From Ornithinimicrobium sp. (GTDB taxonomy: Bacteria; Actinomycetota; Actinomycetes; Actinomycetales; Dermatophilaceae), in NCBI GenBank assembly GCA_030145965.1, contig JASKZT010000253.1:1-5334 (forward strand): 5,334 nt of DNA, written 5' to 3'. Position numbers and translations under genes: made by a program. The notes beneath the pieces are model-generated. The model ran no database searches. It was not told where the DNA came from and was given only the letters and a program-made list of their open reading frames with translations. Positions 1 to 5,131 of this stretch are shown in pieces. The stretch's first letter is position 1; the number at the start of each line of letters is the position of its first letter.

Positions 1-1136
1 CCGATGTTGGCCACGTGGCTGTGCAGGCTGAGCGCGGAGACGAAGGCCTTGCCCGCGTCCACGCCGCCGGCGATCTCGAAGGCCAGGACGGCGCCGGCGC
101 CGCGGGGCAGGTAGGTCTGCGCGAGGTCGTAGGAGGGGTGGCCGGGCAGCCCGGCGTAGACGACCCGCTCGACCTGCTCGTGGTCCTGCAGCCACCCCGC
201 CACCCGGCGGGCGTTGTCGACGTGCCGCTCGACCCGCAGCGAGAGGGTCTCCACCCCCTGGGCGATGAGGAAGGCGTTGAAGGGCGACACGGCCGGGCCG
301 AGGTCACGCAGCAGCTGGACACGGGCCTTGAGGATGTAGGAGAGGTTGACCCCGAAGATCCCGTCCTTGCCCAGCGCCTCGGCGTACACGAGGCCGTTGT
401 AGGAGGGGTCGGGCTCGGTGAAGCCCGGGAAGCGGTCGTTCTGCGCGTAGTCGAAGGTGCCGCCGTCGACGATGACGCCGGCGATCGAGGTGCCGTGGCC
501 ACCGAGGTACTTCGTCGCCGAGTGGACGACGACGTCCGCGCCGTGCTCGATCGGCCTGGTCAGGTAGGGCGTGGCGACCGTGTTGTCGACCACGAGCGGG
601 ACGCCGACCTCGTGCGCCACGTCGGCCACCGCGCGGATGTCGAGGACCTCGCCGCTGGGGTTGGAGATCGACTCGCCGAAGAAGGCCTTGGTGGTCGGTC
701 GCGCCGCCGCGCGCCAGGAGGCGGGGTCGGTCGGGTCCTCGACGAAGGTCACCTCGATGCCGAGGCGGGGCAGGGTGTGCGCGAAGAGGTTCTGGGTGCC
801 GCCGTAGAGGCTGGGGCTGGCGACGAGGTGGTCGCCGGCTCCGGCGACGTTGAGCACCGCCAGCGTGATCGCGGAGGAGCCGGAGGCGACCAGCAGCGCC
901 CCCACCCCGCCCTCGAGGTCGGCGAGGCGGTTCTCGACGACCTCCTGGGTGGGGTTGGTGATGCGGGTGTAGATCGGGCCGAGCTCGGCCAGCGCGAAGC
1001 GGTTGGCCGCCTGGTCGGCGTCCTCGAAGACGTAGGAGGTCGTCTGGTAGATCGGCAGGGCGCGCGAGCCGGTGGCGGCGTCCGGGGTCTGGCCGGCGTG
1101 GATCTGGCGGGTGGTGAAGTCGGAGTAGGTGCTCAT
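1..1136 (-). CDS. metY: O-acetylhomoserine / O-acetylserine sulfhydrylase (MetY), 3' end cut by window
   Basis: This is a cytoplasmic PLP enzyme of the Cys/Met-metabolism family. MetY joins O-acetyl-L-homoserine to sulfide to give homocysteine (direct sulfhydrylation); many homologues also take O-acetylserine to make cysteine. The 378 visible codons begin MSTYSDFTTRQIHAGQTPD. They include the phosphate-binding YTR (56-58) followed by NPTQEVVENRL, the SGSSA loop (85-89), the cofactor-stacking Tyr111 in SLYGGTQ, ESISNPSGEVLDI (155-167), Asp184 in VVDNT, and the Schiff-base Lys209 in HSATKYLGGHGTS. The reading ends at SHVANI, a family motif, so about 50-60 C-terminal residues are missing (usual length about 430). 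The start is supported by AAGGA (1144-1148) 7 nt upstream. No in-window neighbour belongs to its pathway; it appears to have its own promoter and an attenuator-like leader. The family call is secure. Substrate preference (acetylhomoserine or acetylserine) is inferred from similarity. Confidence 0.95.
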   Translation of the reverse strand, partial: MSTYSDFTTRQIHAGQTPDAATGSRALPIYQTTSYVFEDADQAANRFALAELGPIYTRITNPTQEVVENRLADLEGGVGALLVASGSSAITLAVLNVAGAGDHLVASPSLYGGTQNLFAHTLPRLGIEVTFVEDPTDPASWRAAARPTTKAFFGESISNPSGEVLDIRAVADVAHEVGVPLVVDNTVATPYLTRPIEHGADVVVHSATKYLGGHGTSIAGVIVDGGTFDYAQNDRFPGFTEPDPSYNGLVYAEALGKDGIFGVNLSYILKARVQLLRDLGPAVSPFNAFLIAQGVETLSLRVERHVDNARRVAGWLQDHEQVERVVYAGLPGHPSYDLAQTYLPRGAGAVLAFEIAGGVDAGKAFVSALSLHSHVANI

Positions 1137-1143
1137 GTCGCTG

Positions 1144-1148
1144 TCCTT
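1144..1148 (-). promoter_or_regulatory. Ribosome-binding site of metY
   Basis: AAGGA on the minus strand lies 7 nt before the metY ATG (1136-1134). It fixes the metY start and lies at the far end of the long leader described separately. Confidence 0.75.
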
Positions 1149-1215
1149 CGGAGGTGGCGGGGGGCTGCAGGGGGTGTCACTGCTGCTGGGCCCGTCTCGC
1201 ACAGCGCGGGGTGCC

Positions 1216-1239: not shown

Positions 1240-1279
1240 CGGTGGCGTCACGACGTGGGTCGCGGCTGCGGAGGAGGGC

Positions 1280-1315
1280 TCAGCAGCTGCGCATTCGACG
1301 ACGTGGGGTGCTCAT
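1280..1315 (-). CDS. Leaderless 11-codon upstream ORF ending in Cys, candidate leader peptide of metY
   Basis: The minus strand reads ATG AGC ACC CCA CGT CGT CGA ATG CGC AGC TGC TGA, giving MSTPRRRMRSC-stop. The predicted -10 hexamer (1323-1328) leaves seven bases before the A of this ATG, which is the usual distance to a transcription start. The mRNA would then begin at the start codon and be translated without a Shine-Dalgarno; no SD-like sequence precedes it. Leaderless cysteine-containing upstream ORFs acting as cysteine-responsive attenuators are known in mycobacteria, and Arg-rich, Cys-containing leader peptides are common ahead of sulfur genes in other actinobacteria. Here a Cys codon sits immediately before the stop, with one internal Met and an Arg cluster. 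A role as a sensor of cysteinyl-tRNA (or methionyl/arginyl-tRNA) controlling metY is inferred. An 11-codon ORF can also arise by chance; the promoter position and gene context are what raise confidence. Confidence 0.55.
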   Translation of the reverse strand: MSTPRRRMRSC

Positions 1316-1322
1316 GCGGGAA

Positions 1323-1352
1323 GTTCTAGCAGGGGTTGCGAGACGAAGTCAA
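1323..1352 (-). promoter_or_regulatory. Sigma-70-type promoter of the metY transcript
   Basis: On the minus strand the -35 element TTGACT (1352-1347) and the -10 element TAGAAC (1328-1323) are separated by 18 bp. TTGACT matches the consensus at five of six positions; TAGAAC matches TATAAT at four of six. The element stands out in an otherwise extremely GC-rich region. The start site is predicted at or next to A1315, the first base of the short upstream ORF. Confidence 0.7.
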
Positions 1353-1383
1353 TTCAGCCAGAGGCATCGTGGCGCGCCCCTTT

Positions 1384-1534: not shown

Positions 1535-3601
1535 TCAGGGCAGGTCGAGGACCCACCCGCCCTCCATGGTCGCCAGGTCGAAGCGGGCCATGCCCTGCCA
1601 GTCCAGCGTCCAGAGGTCGTCGCCGACGACGAGGACGCGCAGCGGGCCGTCGCCGGACATGCCGGCCCTGGGGACGGTCGGCACCGAGGCGCTCTCGACG
1701 AGGCCGCCACCGTCCACGTCGAGCACCGTGACGCCCGCGAACTGGTCGGCCGGCACGTCGCCGTCCGCGACGCCCTCCCAGTCGCCCCAGCGGGTCATCG
1801 GCAGGACGACCTGCCCGGTGGCCGGCCAGTGCAGGAAGGCGCGGTGGTCGTGCTCCACGGGCGAGGAGCTGTCGGGCCAGGTGAGCACCTGCGTCTGCGT
1901 CGGGGCGGAGAGGTCGCTGATGTCGAACATCGAGACCTGCAGACCCTTCGTCGCGCCGGTCCGCTCGTCCGCGTCCTGGCCCACCCCCAGCAGACGACCG
2001 TCCCCGAGCGGGTGCAGGTAGGCCGAGTACCCGGGGATCTTCAGCTCGCCGGCCACCCGCGGCGCCGTGGGGTCGCTGGTGTCGAGGAGGTAGAGCGGGT
2101 CGGTCTGGCGGAAGGTCACCACGGCTGCGAGGTCGGGGCTCAGGTAGCGCACGGCGCGGATGGTCTCGGTGACGCCCAGCCCGTCGACCCGGCCGCTCTC
2201 CACCAGCCGCTCGTCCTCCTCGCGCAGGACGACGAGCGAGGAGGAGGAGCTCTGGGAGGCGCCGGGCGGGTCGAGCGTGGTGGCCACCCGGAGCACGCCG
2301 TCCTGCTCGTCCAGCGCCCACTGGCTCAGCAGGTGGCCCTCCACGCTGCCCGAGGCCGCCCAGGCGGTGCCGTCCGGGTCGCTGATGTCGAAGACGTGCA
2401 GGCCGGTGCGGTTGGCCGGCCGGCCGCCCGGCCAGAGGGCGTCGACGGCCGGGCCGCCCATCCAGGTCCAGACGTCCCACGGGCTGGTGGCGAGCACGAG
2501 GCGGTCGGGGGAGGCGTAGACCGTGCTGCCGGAGGCGACGAGCCCGGCGCTGGAGCTGGGCGTCGGGGTGGCCGAGCCGAGGTCGAAGGTCACGACGGAG
2601 GTGGTCGAGATGCCGGCCGGGTCGCGGGGGCGGGAGATCTCCTCGCACCCGAGCAGCACGTCGGTGGACAGCACCTGGCCGTCGCCGTCGAGCACCTGCA
2701 CGTGCGGCACCCAGTCGTCGATGGTCGTGGCGCGGACGAGCTCGCGGTTGCGCTCCTGCGCGTCGGCCTCGGCCGCGAGGGTGCCCTTGGTCGGGTGGGT
2801 CTGCTCCAGGCCGGGAGGGTCGGTGACCATGACCATCCGCAGCGCGTCCTCGACCAGGCGGGCGGAGCGGTAGCCGCCCTCGAGCCGCACGGAGCCGACC
2901 GTGCGGGGGGCGGCCGGGTCGGTCAGGTCGACCGTGGTGACCAGCGTGCGGGAGGCCGGGAAGGCGACGAACGTGCCGTCGACCGGCTGGTGCCCGCCGG
3001 ACCACTCCTCGGCGAGGACGACGAGGGTGCTCCCGTGCAGCAGCACCTCGGAGGCGTGGACCGTGTCGGCGCGGCCGGGCAGCCGCACCTCCGAGACCAC
3101 CCGCGCGGTCGCCACGTCGACCACCCGGACCCTCCCGCTGACGACCGTGACGATGATGCTCCCGTCGGTCTTGACGATGTCCGGCTCGTCGACGCCCTCC
3201 TCCTGGACGTTGGTCGTGGAGTGGTCCGGGGCGGCGCCCGAGGCGGAGCCGTCCGAGCCGGCGGACGCCGCGTCGCCGCCGGCCGAGTCCGCGGCCCCGG
3301 CCATGCCCTCCTCGCCCCAGCCCCACCCGCCGGCCCCCAGCCCGTAGGGCCCGACGAGCTCCAGCGCGTTGGCCTGGTAGTAGGTGAGGAGGTCGGCGCA
3401 GTCGTCGAAACCGCCCAGCAGGCCGTAGGAGGCCGGCAGGGCGGTGACGGCGGCGCGGGCGGCGGTGGCGTCCCAGGGCCCGGCGGGAGGCGCCGTCCGG
3501 GTGCCGGTGCCCGGACCGTCCGGGTCGGTCGGGGCGGGCAGGCACGCGGTCAGCGCGAGCGCGGAGGCGAGGCCGAGGACGGTCAGCGTCGGACGAGGCA
3601 T
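1535..3601 (-). CDS. Secreted lipoprotein with C-terminal beta-propeller domain
   Basis: This is a 688-residue exported protein of the beta-propeller-domain family (Pfam Beta_propel type), anchored to the outside of the cell membrane; no biochemical role is established that I can name. The first 20 residues form a lipoprotein signal peptide (MPRP, then a hydrophobic stretch) with lipobox LTAC, Cys20 being the lipidated residue. A Pro/Thr-rich linker and a short conserved stretch with Cys68 (about 45-85) follow, then a Gly/Ala/Ser-rich low-complexity linker (about 87-128). The family signature TNVQEEGVDEPDIVKTDG is at 130-147. The rest is rich in propeller-like strand patterns such as VVDVATARV, FDISDPDGTAW, LLDTSDPTAPRV and FDISDLSAP. 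The ATG is fixed by AGGAGG 6 nt upstream and by the signal peptide directly after it. The same frame stays open upstream through the neighbouring gene, but that extension is antisense-like shadow coding. It lies 80 nt after a PspC-family gene and may share its transcript; a hairpin terminator follows. Confidence 0.93.
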   Translation of the reverse strand: MPRPTLTVLGLASALALTACLPAPTDPDGPGTGTRTAPPAGPWDATAARAAVTALPASYGLLGGFDDCADLLTYYQANALELVGPYGLGAGGWGWGEEGMAGAADSAGGDAASAGSDGSASGAAPDHSTTNVQEEGVDEPDIVKTDGSIIVTVVSGRVRVVDVATARVVSEVRLPGRADTVHASEVLLHGSTLVVLAEEWSGGHQPVDGTFVAFPASRTLVTTVDLTDPAAPRTVGSVRLEGGYRSARLVEDALRMVMVTDPPGLEQTHPTKGTLAAEADAQERNRELVRATTIDDWVPHVQVLDGDGQVLSTDVLLGCEEISRPRDPAGISTTSVVTFDLGSATPTPSSSAGLVASGSTVYASPDRLVLATSPWDVWTWMGGPAVDALWPGGRPANRTGLHVFDISDPDGTAWAASGSVEGHLLSQWALDEQDGVLRVATTLDPPGASQSSSSSLVVLREEDERLVESGRVDGLGVTETIRAVRYLSPDLAAVVTFRQTDPLYLLDTSDPTAPRVAGELKIPGYSAYLHPLGDGRLLGVGQDADERTGATKGLQVSMFDISDLSAPTQTQVLTWPDSSSPVEHDHRAFLHWPATGQVVLPMTRWGDWEGVADGDVPADQFAGVTVLDVDGGGLVESASVPTVPRAGMSGDGPLRVLVVGDDLWTLDWQGMARFDLATMEGGWVLDLP

Positions 3602-3681: not shown

Positions 3682-4371
3682 TCAGGCGCCGGTGCCGCCG
3701 TCCTTCTTCTTGGCCGCGTTGACGATGTAGTAGACGACGCCCACGGTCACGGCGATGGGGACGAGCCAGCCGATGCCCTCCATGAGGGTGCTCACCATCC
3801 CGAGCGCCGCCAGCCCGCCCAGGGCCAGGATGACCAGCGAGCCGCCGTCGCCCTGGCGCACGCCCTTCTCGACGTGGGTCCGCCCCGACTGGTCGGGCAG
3901 GAGCGCCCAGGCGATGAGGTAGGCGGCGATGCCGCTGCCGAAGAAGAGGGCCAGCGCGACCGCGCCGATGCGGACCGCCGCGGTCGAGACGCCCATCTGC
4001 TTGGCCAGCCCGGCCGCGACGCCGCCGATGATGCCGTCGTCGGTGTCCCGGCGCAGCGGCGACCTCTGCAGGGCCGACAGCCCGCGGTCGAGGCCGGTGG
4101 CGCTGGCGCCCCCCTGCTTCCGGCCGTGCTGCTGGTGCGGGCCCGCGCCGTGGCCGCCGGGCTCGCTGCCCGGGTAGCCGTGCTGCCCGTGGGGCGGCTG
4201 GGCGACGGGCGGCTGCCCCAGCGCGGGGGGTCGCACGCCCCACACGTCGTCACCGGTCTGGCCGCTGCCCGGGGCCGGGTGCGGATGGCCGGTCGGCGGC
4301 GGGGCGCCGTGCGGCGGGGGCGGCGGGACGGGAGGCTGTCGGTCGTCGTGGTCGGTGCCGTCGTGGTTCAT
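3682..4371 (-). CDS. PspC-domain membrane protein with Pro-rich N-terminal tail
   Basis: This is a 229-residue protein. The PspC domain takes its name from the phage-shock envelope-stress component PspC and is widespread in actinobacterial membrane stress and signalling proteins. Residues 1-92 are disordered and rich in Pro, Gly and His (a run of five prolines, many HP and HG pairs), with a DDVWGVRPPAL motif at 41-51. LDRGLSALQRSPLRR (94-108) leads into the PspC domain (about 104-160): GIIGGVAAGLAKQMGVSTA, a hydrophobic helix at about 133-157, and the typical AYLIAWALLPD ending. Two further hydrophobic segments (about 178-195 and 201-218) and a KKK end suggest a three-helix membrane protein. 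It is a tandem paralogue of the upstream PspC gene. The ATG has no clear Shine-Dalgarno, but the tail's similarity to the paralogue supports a start near here. Its job is unknown; sensing envelope stress or scaffolding is inference. Confidence 0.93.
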   Translation of the reverse strand: MNHDGTDHDDRQPPVPPPPPHGAPPPTGHPHPAPGSGQTGDDVWGVRPPALGQPPVAQPPHGQHGYPGSEPGGHGAGPHQQHGRKQGGASATGLDRGLSALQRSPLRRDTDDGIIGGVAAGLAKQMGVSTAAVRIGAVALALFFGSGIAAYLIAWALLPDQSGRTHVEKGVRQGDGGSLVILALGGLAALGMVSTLMEGIGWLVPIAVTVGVVYYIVNAAKKKDGGTGA

Positions 4372-4487
4372 GTCTCAAGACTCTCGCATCGGAGGGGTCG
4401 GCGTCATGGGCGTGCCGGTGTTCCCGGGTCGGACGTGGGGGTGGGCCGAGGTGGTTCCGTCGGCCCTGGTGGGAGGTCGAACGCGTG

Positions 4488-4521
4488 GCGACGGCGGGAC
4501 CCGGACGGGTCCCGCCGTCGC
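4488..4521 (-). terminator. Perfect 15-bp stem terminator after the first PspC gene
   Basis: GCGACGGCGGGACCC (4488-4502) and GGGTCCCGCCGTCGC (4507-4521) pair without a mismatch around a 4-nt GGAC loop. The stem begins 25 nt after the stop of the upstream PspC gene. It separates that gene's transcript from the second PspC gene, which implies that the latter has its own promoter within 4372-4487. I could not identify that promoter with confidence. No T-tract follows. Confidence 0.85.
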
Positions 4522-4546
4522 GGACGGAGGACGCCGTGCGTGTCCG

Positions 4547-5131
4547 TCAGCCGTGGGTGTGGGCCGCGGGGCGTCCCTTCCGCCGCGAGACCACGTACGC
4601 CACGGCGGCCGCCGCGAGCAGGAGGGGCCAGGCCGAGCCGACGGCGCCGGCGACGAACCCGAGCACGGGCAGGGCGGCGAGGCCGACGACGGCGAGCGAG
4701 GCGGGCCGGCCGTCGTGCAGCGCCTGCGTGGCGTGGGTCGCGCCGCGCTCGTCGGGCAGCAGGGCCCAGGCGAGCAGGTAGGCGCCGACGCCGACCCCGA
4801 AGAAGAGCGAGAGGAGCACGGCGCTGACGCGCACGGCGGCGGTGGAGACCCCGAGCCGCGCGGCGATGCCGGAGGCCACACCGCCGACGACCCCGCCCCG
4901 GGTGTTCCGGCGCAGCGGCGAGCGCTGCAGCGCCGAGAGGCCGCGGTCGAGGGTGGGCCGGGCGGAGGCCGCCCAGCCCGAGGCGGCGGTGGCGCCGACG
5001 TGCTGCGTGGTGCCGGGCTCCTGCGGGGAGGTGGGAGGCAGGGCCGGGGGGCGGTTGACGCCCCAGACGTCGTCGGTCCCCGCCTGCTGCGGGGAGGTGG
5101 TCGGGGTGGCGGTGGCGTAGGTCTCGTCCAT
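4547..5131 (-). CDS. PspC-domain membrane protein, paralogue of its neighbour
   Basis: This is a 194-residue protein starting MDETYATATPTTSPQQ. The layout matches its neighbour at 3682-4371. It has a shorter disordered tail (1-60) carrying DDVWGVNRPPAL (20-31), then LDRGLSALQRSPLRR (61-75, identical to the paralogue). The PspC domain (about 71-127) reads GGVVGGVASGIAARLGVSTA and ends AYLLAWALLPD. Two hydrophobic segments follow (about 145-162 and 166-182), with a basic RRK tail end. An in-frame TTG at 5200 would add 23 residues. I prefer the ATG at 5131 because its N-terminus aligns with the paralogue and the extra residues would run through a probable control region. Neither start has a strong Shine-Dalgarno. 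It probably has its own transcription unit, since terminators flank it on both sides. The function is unknown beyond the PspC family's link to envelope stress. Confidence 0.9.
   Translation of the reverse strand: MDETYATATPTTSPQQAGTDDVWGVNRPPALPPTSPQEPGTTQHVGATAASGWAASARPTLDRGLSALQRSPLRRNTRGGVVGGVASGIAARLGVSTAAVRVSAVLLSLFFGVGVGAYLLAWALLPDERGATHATQALHDGRPASLAVVGLAALPVLGFVAGAVGSAWPLLLAAAAVAYVVSRRKGRPAAHTHG

Follow-up and report, generated by a model that had tools for sequence, protein, structure and literature searches.

The window analyzed here, a stretch of 5,334 nucleotides from an Ornithinimicrobium contig, carries at its edge a gene for the O-acetylhomoserine sulfhydrylase MetY, which was identified by its match to NCBIfam TIGR01326 (552.6 bits versus a cut-off of 495.1) and for which the closest proteins found belong to the genera Ornithinimicrobium and Serinicoccus, that of O. 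cerasi being 88% identical. Ahead of it, with all of the leader elements on the minus strand, lies an upstream ORF (uORF) that reads ATG-AGC-ACC-CCA-CGT-CGT-CGA-ATG-CGC-AGC-TGC-TGA (1315-1280) and whose stop codon is separated from the metY start by 143 bases (Table 1). Farther upstream on the same strand, at 1535-3601 and 3682-5131, are encoded a Beta_propel (PF09826) protein and two adjoining PspC-domain proteins. An inverted repeat, CCGGACCCCT...AGGGGTCCGG, can be discerned by eye at 1462-1500, in the gap separating the metY promoter from the gene upstream; it is perhaps the terminator of that gene and is absent from the terminator-scan list of the window.

Table 1. Elements of the metY leader in the window, with positions in the window
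Feature	Position	Strand	Remarks
metY, O-acetylhomoserine sulfhydrylase	3..1136	-	Runs past the window edge; start at 1136
Extended -35 element ATTGACTTCG	1344..1353	-	Hexamer TTGACT at 1347-1352; in 21/21 leaderless rows
-10 element TAGAAC	1323..1328	-	18 bases from the -35 element; 7 bases ahead of the uORF ATG
uORF MSTPRRRMRSC-stop, predicted leaderless	1280..1315	-	11 codons; TGA at 1282-1280
Invariant codon pair CGA-ATG (Arg-Met)	1292..1297	-	
Terminal Cys codon TGC, adjoining TGA	1283..1285	-	In 21/21 leaderless rows
Long-range stem, predicted 5' arm CTGCTGAGCCC	1276..1286	-	Contains the Cys and stop codons; RNAalifold consensus, pair counts
Long-range stem, predicted 3' arm GGGCCCAGCAG	1183..1193	-	One A-C mismatch in the window; RNAalifold, pair counts
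C-rich, G-poor stretch ahead of metY	1150..1179	-	Candidate Rho-loading region, by composition
Shine-Dalgarno-like GAAGGA of metY	1144..1149	-	By eye

The sequence-only reading had described a TTGACT-N18-TAGAAC promoter followed seven bases later by the ATG (1315) of MSTPRRRMRSC-stop ahead of metY, and this layout was found just as described. Judged by that spacing, the predicted +1 or +2 position falls at about the A of the ATG. The extended -35 element is present throughout our set of 21 leaderless rows, which comprises 19 leaders from the genus, the window, and L001, and a TAGA or TACA hexamer lies 6-8 bases before the ATG in 19 of them (L195 and L197 are without one). A search of the 31 genus genomes with the pattern TTGACTTC-N12-18-TAGANN returned 19 matches in 16 genomes (three are repeated copies elsewhere in G442), versus 10 for the reversed control; in each of the 16 positive genomes, one promoter match begins 53-58 bases from the uORF core. 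A strict sigma-70 scan of the window listed no promoter. Leaderless-looking versions of the uORF, MLRRMCR and MFRRMCR, are also seen in Demequina, where TTGACC is followed by TACAGT or TAAGGT at a distance of seven bases from the ATG. The conserved -35 block of the metY leader spans ten bases, more than the hexamer requires, and may also be an operator.

Among the 31 genomes grouped by the search into the genus of these relatives, metY was recovered in 29 at an E value of 1e-120 or better; a thirtieth leader, that of G509 (L160), was found via its promoter, and G511 gave none. The 30 readable leaders comprise 19 with a uORF but without an aptamer, 10 with a SAM-IV riboswitch and a related uORF, and one (L212) with SAM-IV alone; with 19 of 30 leaders showing it, the layout seen in the window is unlikely to be a coincidence. 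Rfam RF00634 was confirmed in all 11 SAM-type leaders and in none of the seven leaderless loci given to the Rfam search; the window leader has no RF00634 match above 38 bits, nor any even at E values up to 10. The uORFs of the ten SAM-IV-linked leaders lie 3' of the aptamer, are led by a Shine-Dalgarno sequence, and start with GTG; nine of their peptides are of the MTCCRMPNR, MTCCRMPSR, MTRRMCRC, or MTRRMCGC type, and one is MTCRMCSR. By eye, a similar promoter stands immediately ahead of the aptamer in the SAM-type leaders.

The leaderless peptides include MSTPRRRMRSC, MTTARRRMRSC, MTSRSRRMRRC, MTSHSRRMRSC, MPTARRRMCRC, and MTCHPRRRMRRC. The earlier expectation of a conserved, apparently leaderless mini-ORF with a terminal Cys and synonymous drift in the neighboring codons was borne out: TGC-TGA closes the frame in every one of the 21 rows, and within the leaderless clade 19/19 examined leaders retain the ORF, so that its loss in close relatives, named beforehand as a refuting observation, was not seen there. 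The Arg cluster that had been expected alongside this Cys-stop ending is variable (RRRMR, SRRMR, or GRRMR). Both of the codons relevant to the pathway, Met and Cys, are kept in all 21 rows. Across these rows, mean pairwise identity reaches 0.95 in the uORF core with its stop and 0.94 in the partner strand of the stem discussed below, against 0.38 in the intervening loop. As is characteristic of leader-peptide attenuators, metY is preceded on its own strand by a short ORF that is kept in frame ahead of a pathway gene.

The invariant part of this uORF is the codon pair CGA-ATG. In 21/21 leaderless uORFs, CGA encodes the Arg that precedes the internal Met, whereas their other Arg codons are CGC (57), CGT (12), and CGA (1); the metY genes use CGA for 12 of their 543 Arg codons (2%; 31 sequences). 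When any CGN codon was admitted, CGA was found in 29/29 uORFs of the genus and, outside it, in L019, L025, L027, and L028. A scan for any Arg codon behind 117 SAM-IV aptamers, which came from 81 of the 148 genomes of the class, yielded 14 Arg-Met uORFs, all with CGA (L322, which ended after 134 bases, was not judgeable). Invariance at the base level that includes the synonymous third base would also be expected if CGAAUG were recognized as RNA, be it by a protein, a small RNA, or the ribosome, with the uORF peptide being irrelevant. We consider this unlikely because the adjacent Arg codons drift synonymously, because the hexamer, in the uORFs counted, shares the frame of a start codon that either opens the predicted transcript or follows a Shine-Dalgarno-like sequence, and because RNAalifold predicted no common fold around CGA-ATG in both the leaderless and the SAM-type leaders. 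An arrest peptide, in which the basic nascent chain R-R-M-R, alone or together with a metabolite, halts the ribosome, would fit the short basic peptides with conserved residues, some of them with R-M-R; however, the chain is highly variable (MTCCRMPNR, MCCRMCR, MTSRSRRMRRC) and peptide chemistry gives no reason for the synonymous conservation of CGA, and we regard this explanation as very unlikely.

CGA-ATG uORFs are also found in a range of other contexts. Among the best 80 of 335 relatives examined for metY leaders (up to 450 bases upstream, codon-blind), 18 loci have a CGA-ATG uORF of the window type. Four of the 14 SAM-IV-linked uORFs from the class-wide scan precede metY-like genes (MCIRRMCCR and MNHHRMRR, by PF01053; MSCQRMPRR and MTCRMRR, by eye). 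The other ten are of the SKRMR, NQRMR, or SQRMR type and come from genomes of 7 to 10 Mb; an Aminotran_5 gene lies behind the two that were scanned, and three more look alike by eye. These loci (L219, L222, L224, L226, L229, L230, L238, L241, L258, and L260) have a six-codon uORF with the stop TAG, and in some of them, judged by eye, base pairing seems feasible between the Shine-Dalgarno sequence and a CTCC segment that immediately precedes the GTG. In L120, at about position 1500 on the minus strand of that locus, the uORF MTRRMRS, with CGA and no Cys, is leaderless-looking and placed directly before metX. Among the codon-blind pattern matches listed, nine loci show MCCRMCR or MCCRMCS with CGA; a Trans_reg_C winged-helix protein is encoded behind L136, the one of the nine that was scanned, and likewise behind L087, which came from another pattern scan, and two long MCCRMCR leaders matched no family in NCBIfam. 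Leaders with these two peptides were noted at L087, L088, L090, L124, L126-L128, L131, L132, and L134-L136; by eye, the peptide forms the end of a 32-33-codon ORF in some loci, and in L131, L132, and L136 a TAAT-like -10 lies six or seven bases ahead of the ATG of that ORF. Finally, a protein search of 61 Streptomyces genomes for homologues of the leader peptide MetL gave the CGA-ATG core in 20/20 loci examined, where the other Arg codons are CGC (28) and CGT (22); one MetL variant, L378, has an additional Arg-Met pair, CGC-ATG, beside the core. Pattern-search loci for MetL in Streptomyces resembled chance matches and were set aside.

All of these uORF scans were keyed on Arg-Met, and uORFs of other sequence fall outside them. 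Short Arg-Met ORFs with CGC, CGT, CGG, or AGG also occur in the codon-blind scan, in L022, L051, L060, L062, L065, L068, and L080 and as second ORFs in L001 and L066; one example is MCRMPGMRRCDRP of L051, with CGC. The genus scan likewise has non-CGA cases in L190 and L201 (longer starts in the same frame) and in L209 and L212 (within the aptamer region). Two pattern scans, with 30 loci listed for each, were judged by eye, and many of their matches are embedded in longer frames or lack a nearby start. In the codon-blind one, the non-CGA matches among the 30 loci are without a nearby start, except for L142 and L145, which have a short ORF with a downstream frame. L085 was discarded as a uORF since it sits in a longer reading frame resembling a coding gene.

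Folding of the 21 leaderless leaders with RNAalifold predicted one long helix, between 1286-1276 and 1193-1183, plus a 3-pair hairpin within the uORF; the Cys-stop region is thereby paired with a segment 82 bases on. In this stem, 98.3% of the cells are paired, versus 19-49% when the arms are slid by 1-3 columns, and 7 of 500 shuffles reach the observed percentage. The covariation is modest: at a single pair, both partners differ in the sister rows L186 and L187 (UA in place of CG), and 125 of 500 shuffles do equally well by this measure. The A-C mismatch of the window stem is common to two other rows. The stem is the best longest unbroken complement in 18 of the 21 rows, the exceptions being the window, L191, and L198; the longest in the window has 7 pairs, equaled by 21 of 100 shuffles that kept base composition and nothing else. 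Of ten SAM-type genus leaders, six carry a stem of 8-9 pairs in the same place, though with another sequence, and four do not; for the whole set of ten, the RNAalifold consensus is weak (-4.2 kcal/mol; covariation term positive). Two distant metY leaders also have stems at the stop, one of 14 pairs around a TAA stop in L216 (0/100 shuffles) and one of 11 pairs in L214 (2/100 shuffles). The stem is not clearly beyond shuffles in the genus leaders L204, L207, L208, and L211, nor in L019, L025, L028, and L120. A stop-codon stem for all CGA-ATG uORFs was rejected, as ten SKRMR-type and five winged-helix leaders gave nothing clearly beyond shuffles (best 11/100). The local hairpin CTGCTGAG-gcggg-CTCAGCAG, which would compete with the stem, was likewise dropped as a general antiterminator, being perfect only in the Serinicoccus-type leaders (by eye).

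These structures bear on the possibility of a cysteine-responsive uORF of the mycobacterial type, in which a stall at the Cys codon would free the metY ribosome-binding site. This would account for the invariant terminal TGC and for the presence of at least one Cys in all ten SAM-IV-linked uORFs of the genus; moreover, going by the usual ribosome footprint, the 5' arm would be wholly shielded by a ribosome with the Cys codon in its A site and partly by one with CGA in its P site. However, when the 21 leaders were folded free and with a stalled ribosome, the metY start region was predicted to become more accessible on stalling in only five, by 0.08 or less (the window values are 0.54 free and 0.47 stalled), and ribosome-binding-site masking was therefore rejected as the output. 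Further, the leaderless uORFs typically have a single Cys (in 19 of 21 rows, with two in L185 and L199) and no run or cluster of Cys codons, and relatives without Cys, such as the SKRMR and NQRMR types, MNHHRMRR, and MTRRMRS, retain CGA-ATG. Hence, Cys is typical of the metY branch and not of the whole CGA-ATG family. The nearest published relative, MetL, precedes a methionine importer (PMC8079986). Cysteine as the defining signal, as first proposed, is not supported, the invariant part being CGA-ATG, and we regard the Cys-responsive alternative as improbable.

With regard to the output, the terminator scan of the window listed no intrinsic terminator in the metY leader. The 42-82 bases between the stem and metY have a C content of 0.40-0.51 and a G content of 0.17-0.28. 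This C-rich, G-poor interval makes Rho the best candidate for the output, with the Mbox-uORF arrangement of Mycobacterium tuberculosis as a precedent.

The history of the leader was traced in a metY tree of 35 rows, from which L213 (a short metY) and L160 were left out, L181 being a repeat of L160. All 19 leaderless rows given to it form one clade (support 100/97), consistent with one change. No SAM-IV row of the genus falls within this clade; its sister, with modest support (86/83), is L212, which has SAM-IV alone. In the sister lineages, the predicted SAM-IV occupies the same leader position, ahead of the related uORF. Since the leaderless form makes up a single clade here, one loss of an ancestral SAM-IV aptamer in the lineage of the window is probable, with the uORF left as the remaining sensor. 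The simplest account is that this single loss would also have placed the start codon of the uORF at the 5' end of the transcript.

Several of the elements can be read directly from the DNA, namely, the layout and its conservation, the codon pair, the complementary arms of the stem with their conservation, and, in sister lineages, a match to SAM-IV at the corresponding place. Our favored interpretation, to which we would give about an even chance, is that the metY uORF with its CGA-AUG and terminal Cys acts as an attenuator that senses Met and Cys supply through the position of the ribosome. The ribosome would begin at the 5' AUG of the uORF. Scarcity of charged Met-tRNA would slow it at CGA-AUG, where CGA in the P site may sensitize it to the supply of Met-tRNA, and scarcity of Cys-tRNA would slow it at UGC, where its footprint would extend over the 5' arm. 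The slowed ribosome would hold the predicted stop-codon stem open, so that metY stays on. Under conditions of plenty, the ribosome would depart, the stem would close over the stop codon, and transcription would end early before metY, probably by the action of Rho in the C-rich stretch. The step by which the closed stem would lower metY is the weakest of this model, and, by analogy, Rho would be the best candidate for it. Weighing against the interpretation are the small changes in predicted start-site accessibility, the lack of a listed intrinsic terminator, the modest covariation of the stem and its mismatch in the window, the competing hairpin being perfect in Serinicoccus-type leaders only, the partial coverage of the 5' arm expected with CGA in the P site, the alternative of an RNA site, and the short Arg-Met ORFs with other Arg codons.

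Work in yeast indicates that inosine-adenine pairing at a P-site CGA interferes with the codon that follows. In bacteria, CGA was read slowly or poorly in a his-leader assay (PMC4046918). More tentatively, and with somewhat less than an even chance of being correct, CGA-AUG might be a general methionyl-tRNA sensor of Actinomycetes, in which the poor inosine-adenine pairing of CGA in the P site would confer hypersensitivity to Met-tRNA supply at the next codon, which occurs coupled to SAM-IV or standalone, and which would have replaced the riboswitch at metY. Such a uORF together with the SAM-IV aptamer would constitute a two-input switch for SAM plus Met-tRNA, and it would act standalone before metX, metNIQ, and the regulator gene. 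In the clade of the window, the uORF would have taken over the control of metY after deletion of the riboswitch, becoming the 5' end of the message.

Leader peptides are usually recognized by runs of the regulated amino acid. The signature of the metY uORF is one synonymous codon choice before one Met codon, and such uORFs therefore escape the usual search. One hexamer connects five gene settings: metY, metX, metNIQ (the published MetL), the SAM-IV-linked Aminotran_5 gene, and the winged-helix regulator gene. The genus, in turn, offers a natural series for the loss of a riboswitch with retention of the uORF. In the titles and abstract openings of the open-access literature searched, we found no paper on the metY uORF, the SAM-IV-uORF pair, or CGA-AUG in leaders.

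Several known systems resemble this one in part. The polycysteine leaderless uORFs of mycobacteria, reportedly described by Canestrari in 2020, are said to act through masking of the ribosome-binding site, a mechanism that is not predicted at the metY leader. Like the metY uORF, they are short ORFs before a sulfur gene with Cys near the stop (PMC4633059), but they have Cys clusters rather than one or two Cys. A citing paper credits them with "translation attenuation" (PMC13236596). For the actinobacterial cys and cbs operons, an earlier study (PMC1262725) lists candidate Cys leader peptides without an intrinsic terminator, suggests Rho, and found that methionine operons have no conserved RNA structure ahead of them. 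These leader peptides share with the metY uORF the short ORF, the Cys near the stop, the want of an intrinsic terminator, and the suggested role of Rho, but have runs of Cys codons. The SAM-IV riboswitch (RF00634) is comparable in its position in the leaders of sister lineages and differs in being absent from the window leader.

A closer parallel in its core is MetL (SLIV_29928) of Streptomyces lividans, a leader peptide of metNIQ for which a leaderless transcript is reported and the methionines and threonines of the peptide are remarked upon (PMC8079986). Both uORFs stand before a methionine gene and have an in-frame CGA-ATG (Arg-Met) core with Cys around it, MetL containing CRRMC. On the other hand, MetL is 29 residues long, its N-terminal part is unrelated to that of the metY uORF and it ends in AF (by eye), and an importer, not metY, lies downstream; the CGA-AUG pair, a SAM-IV link, and a stop-codon stem are not mentioned in the sections consulted (PMC8079986). 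With respect to regulatory order, an analogy may be drawn with pe20 of M. tuberculosis, where an Mbox riboswitch controls a small uORF with Rho-dependent termination (PMC12810186). It resembles the present case in its order: a riboswitch, a conserved uORF, and a Rho-linked loss of the downstream gene. That system differs in its ligand and peptide, and its uORF is not described in the sections consulted as an amino-acid sensor.
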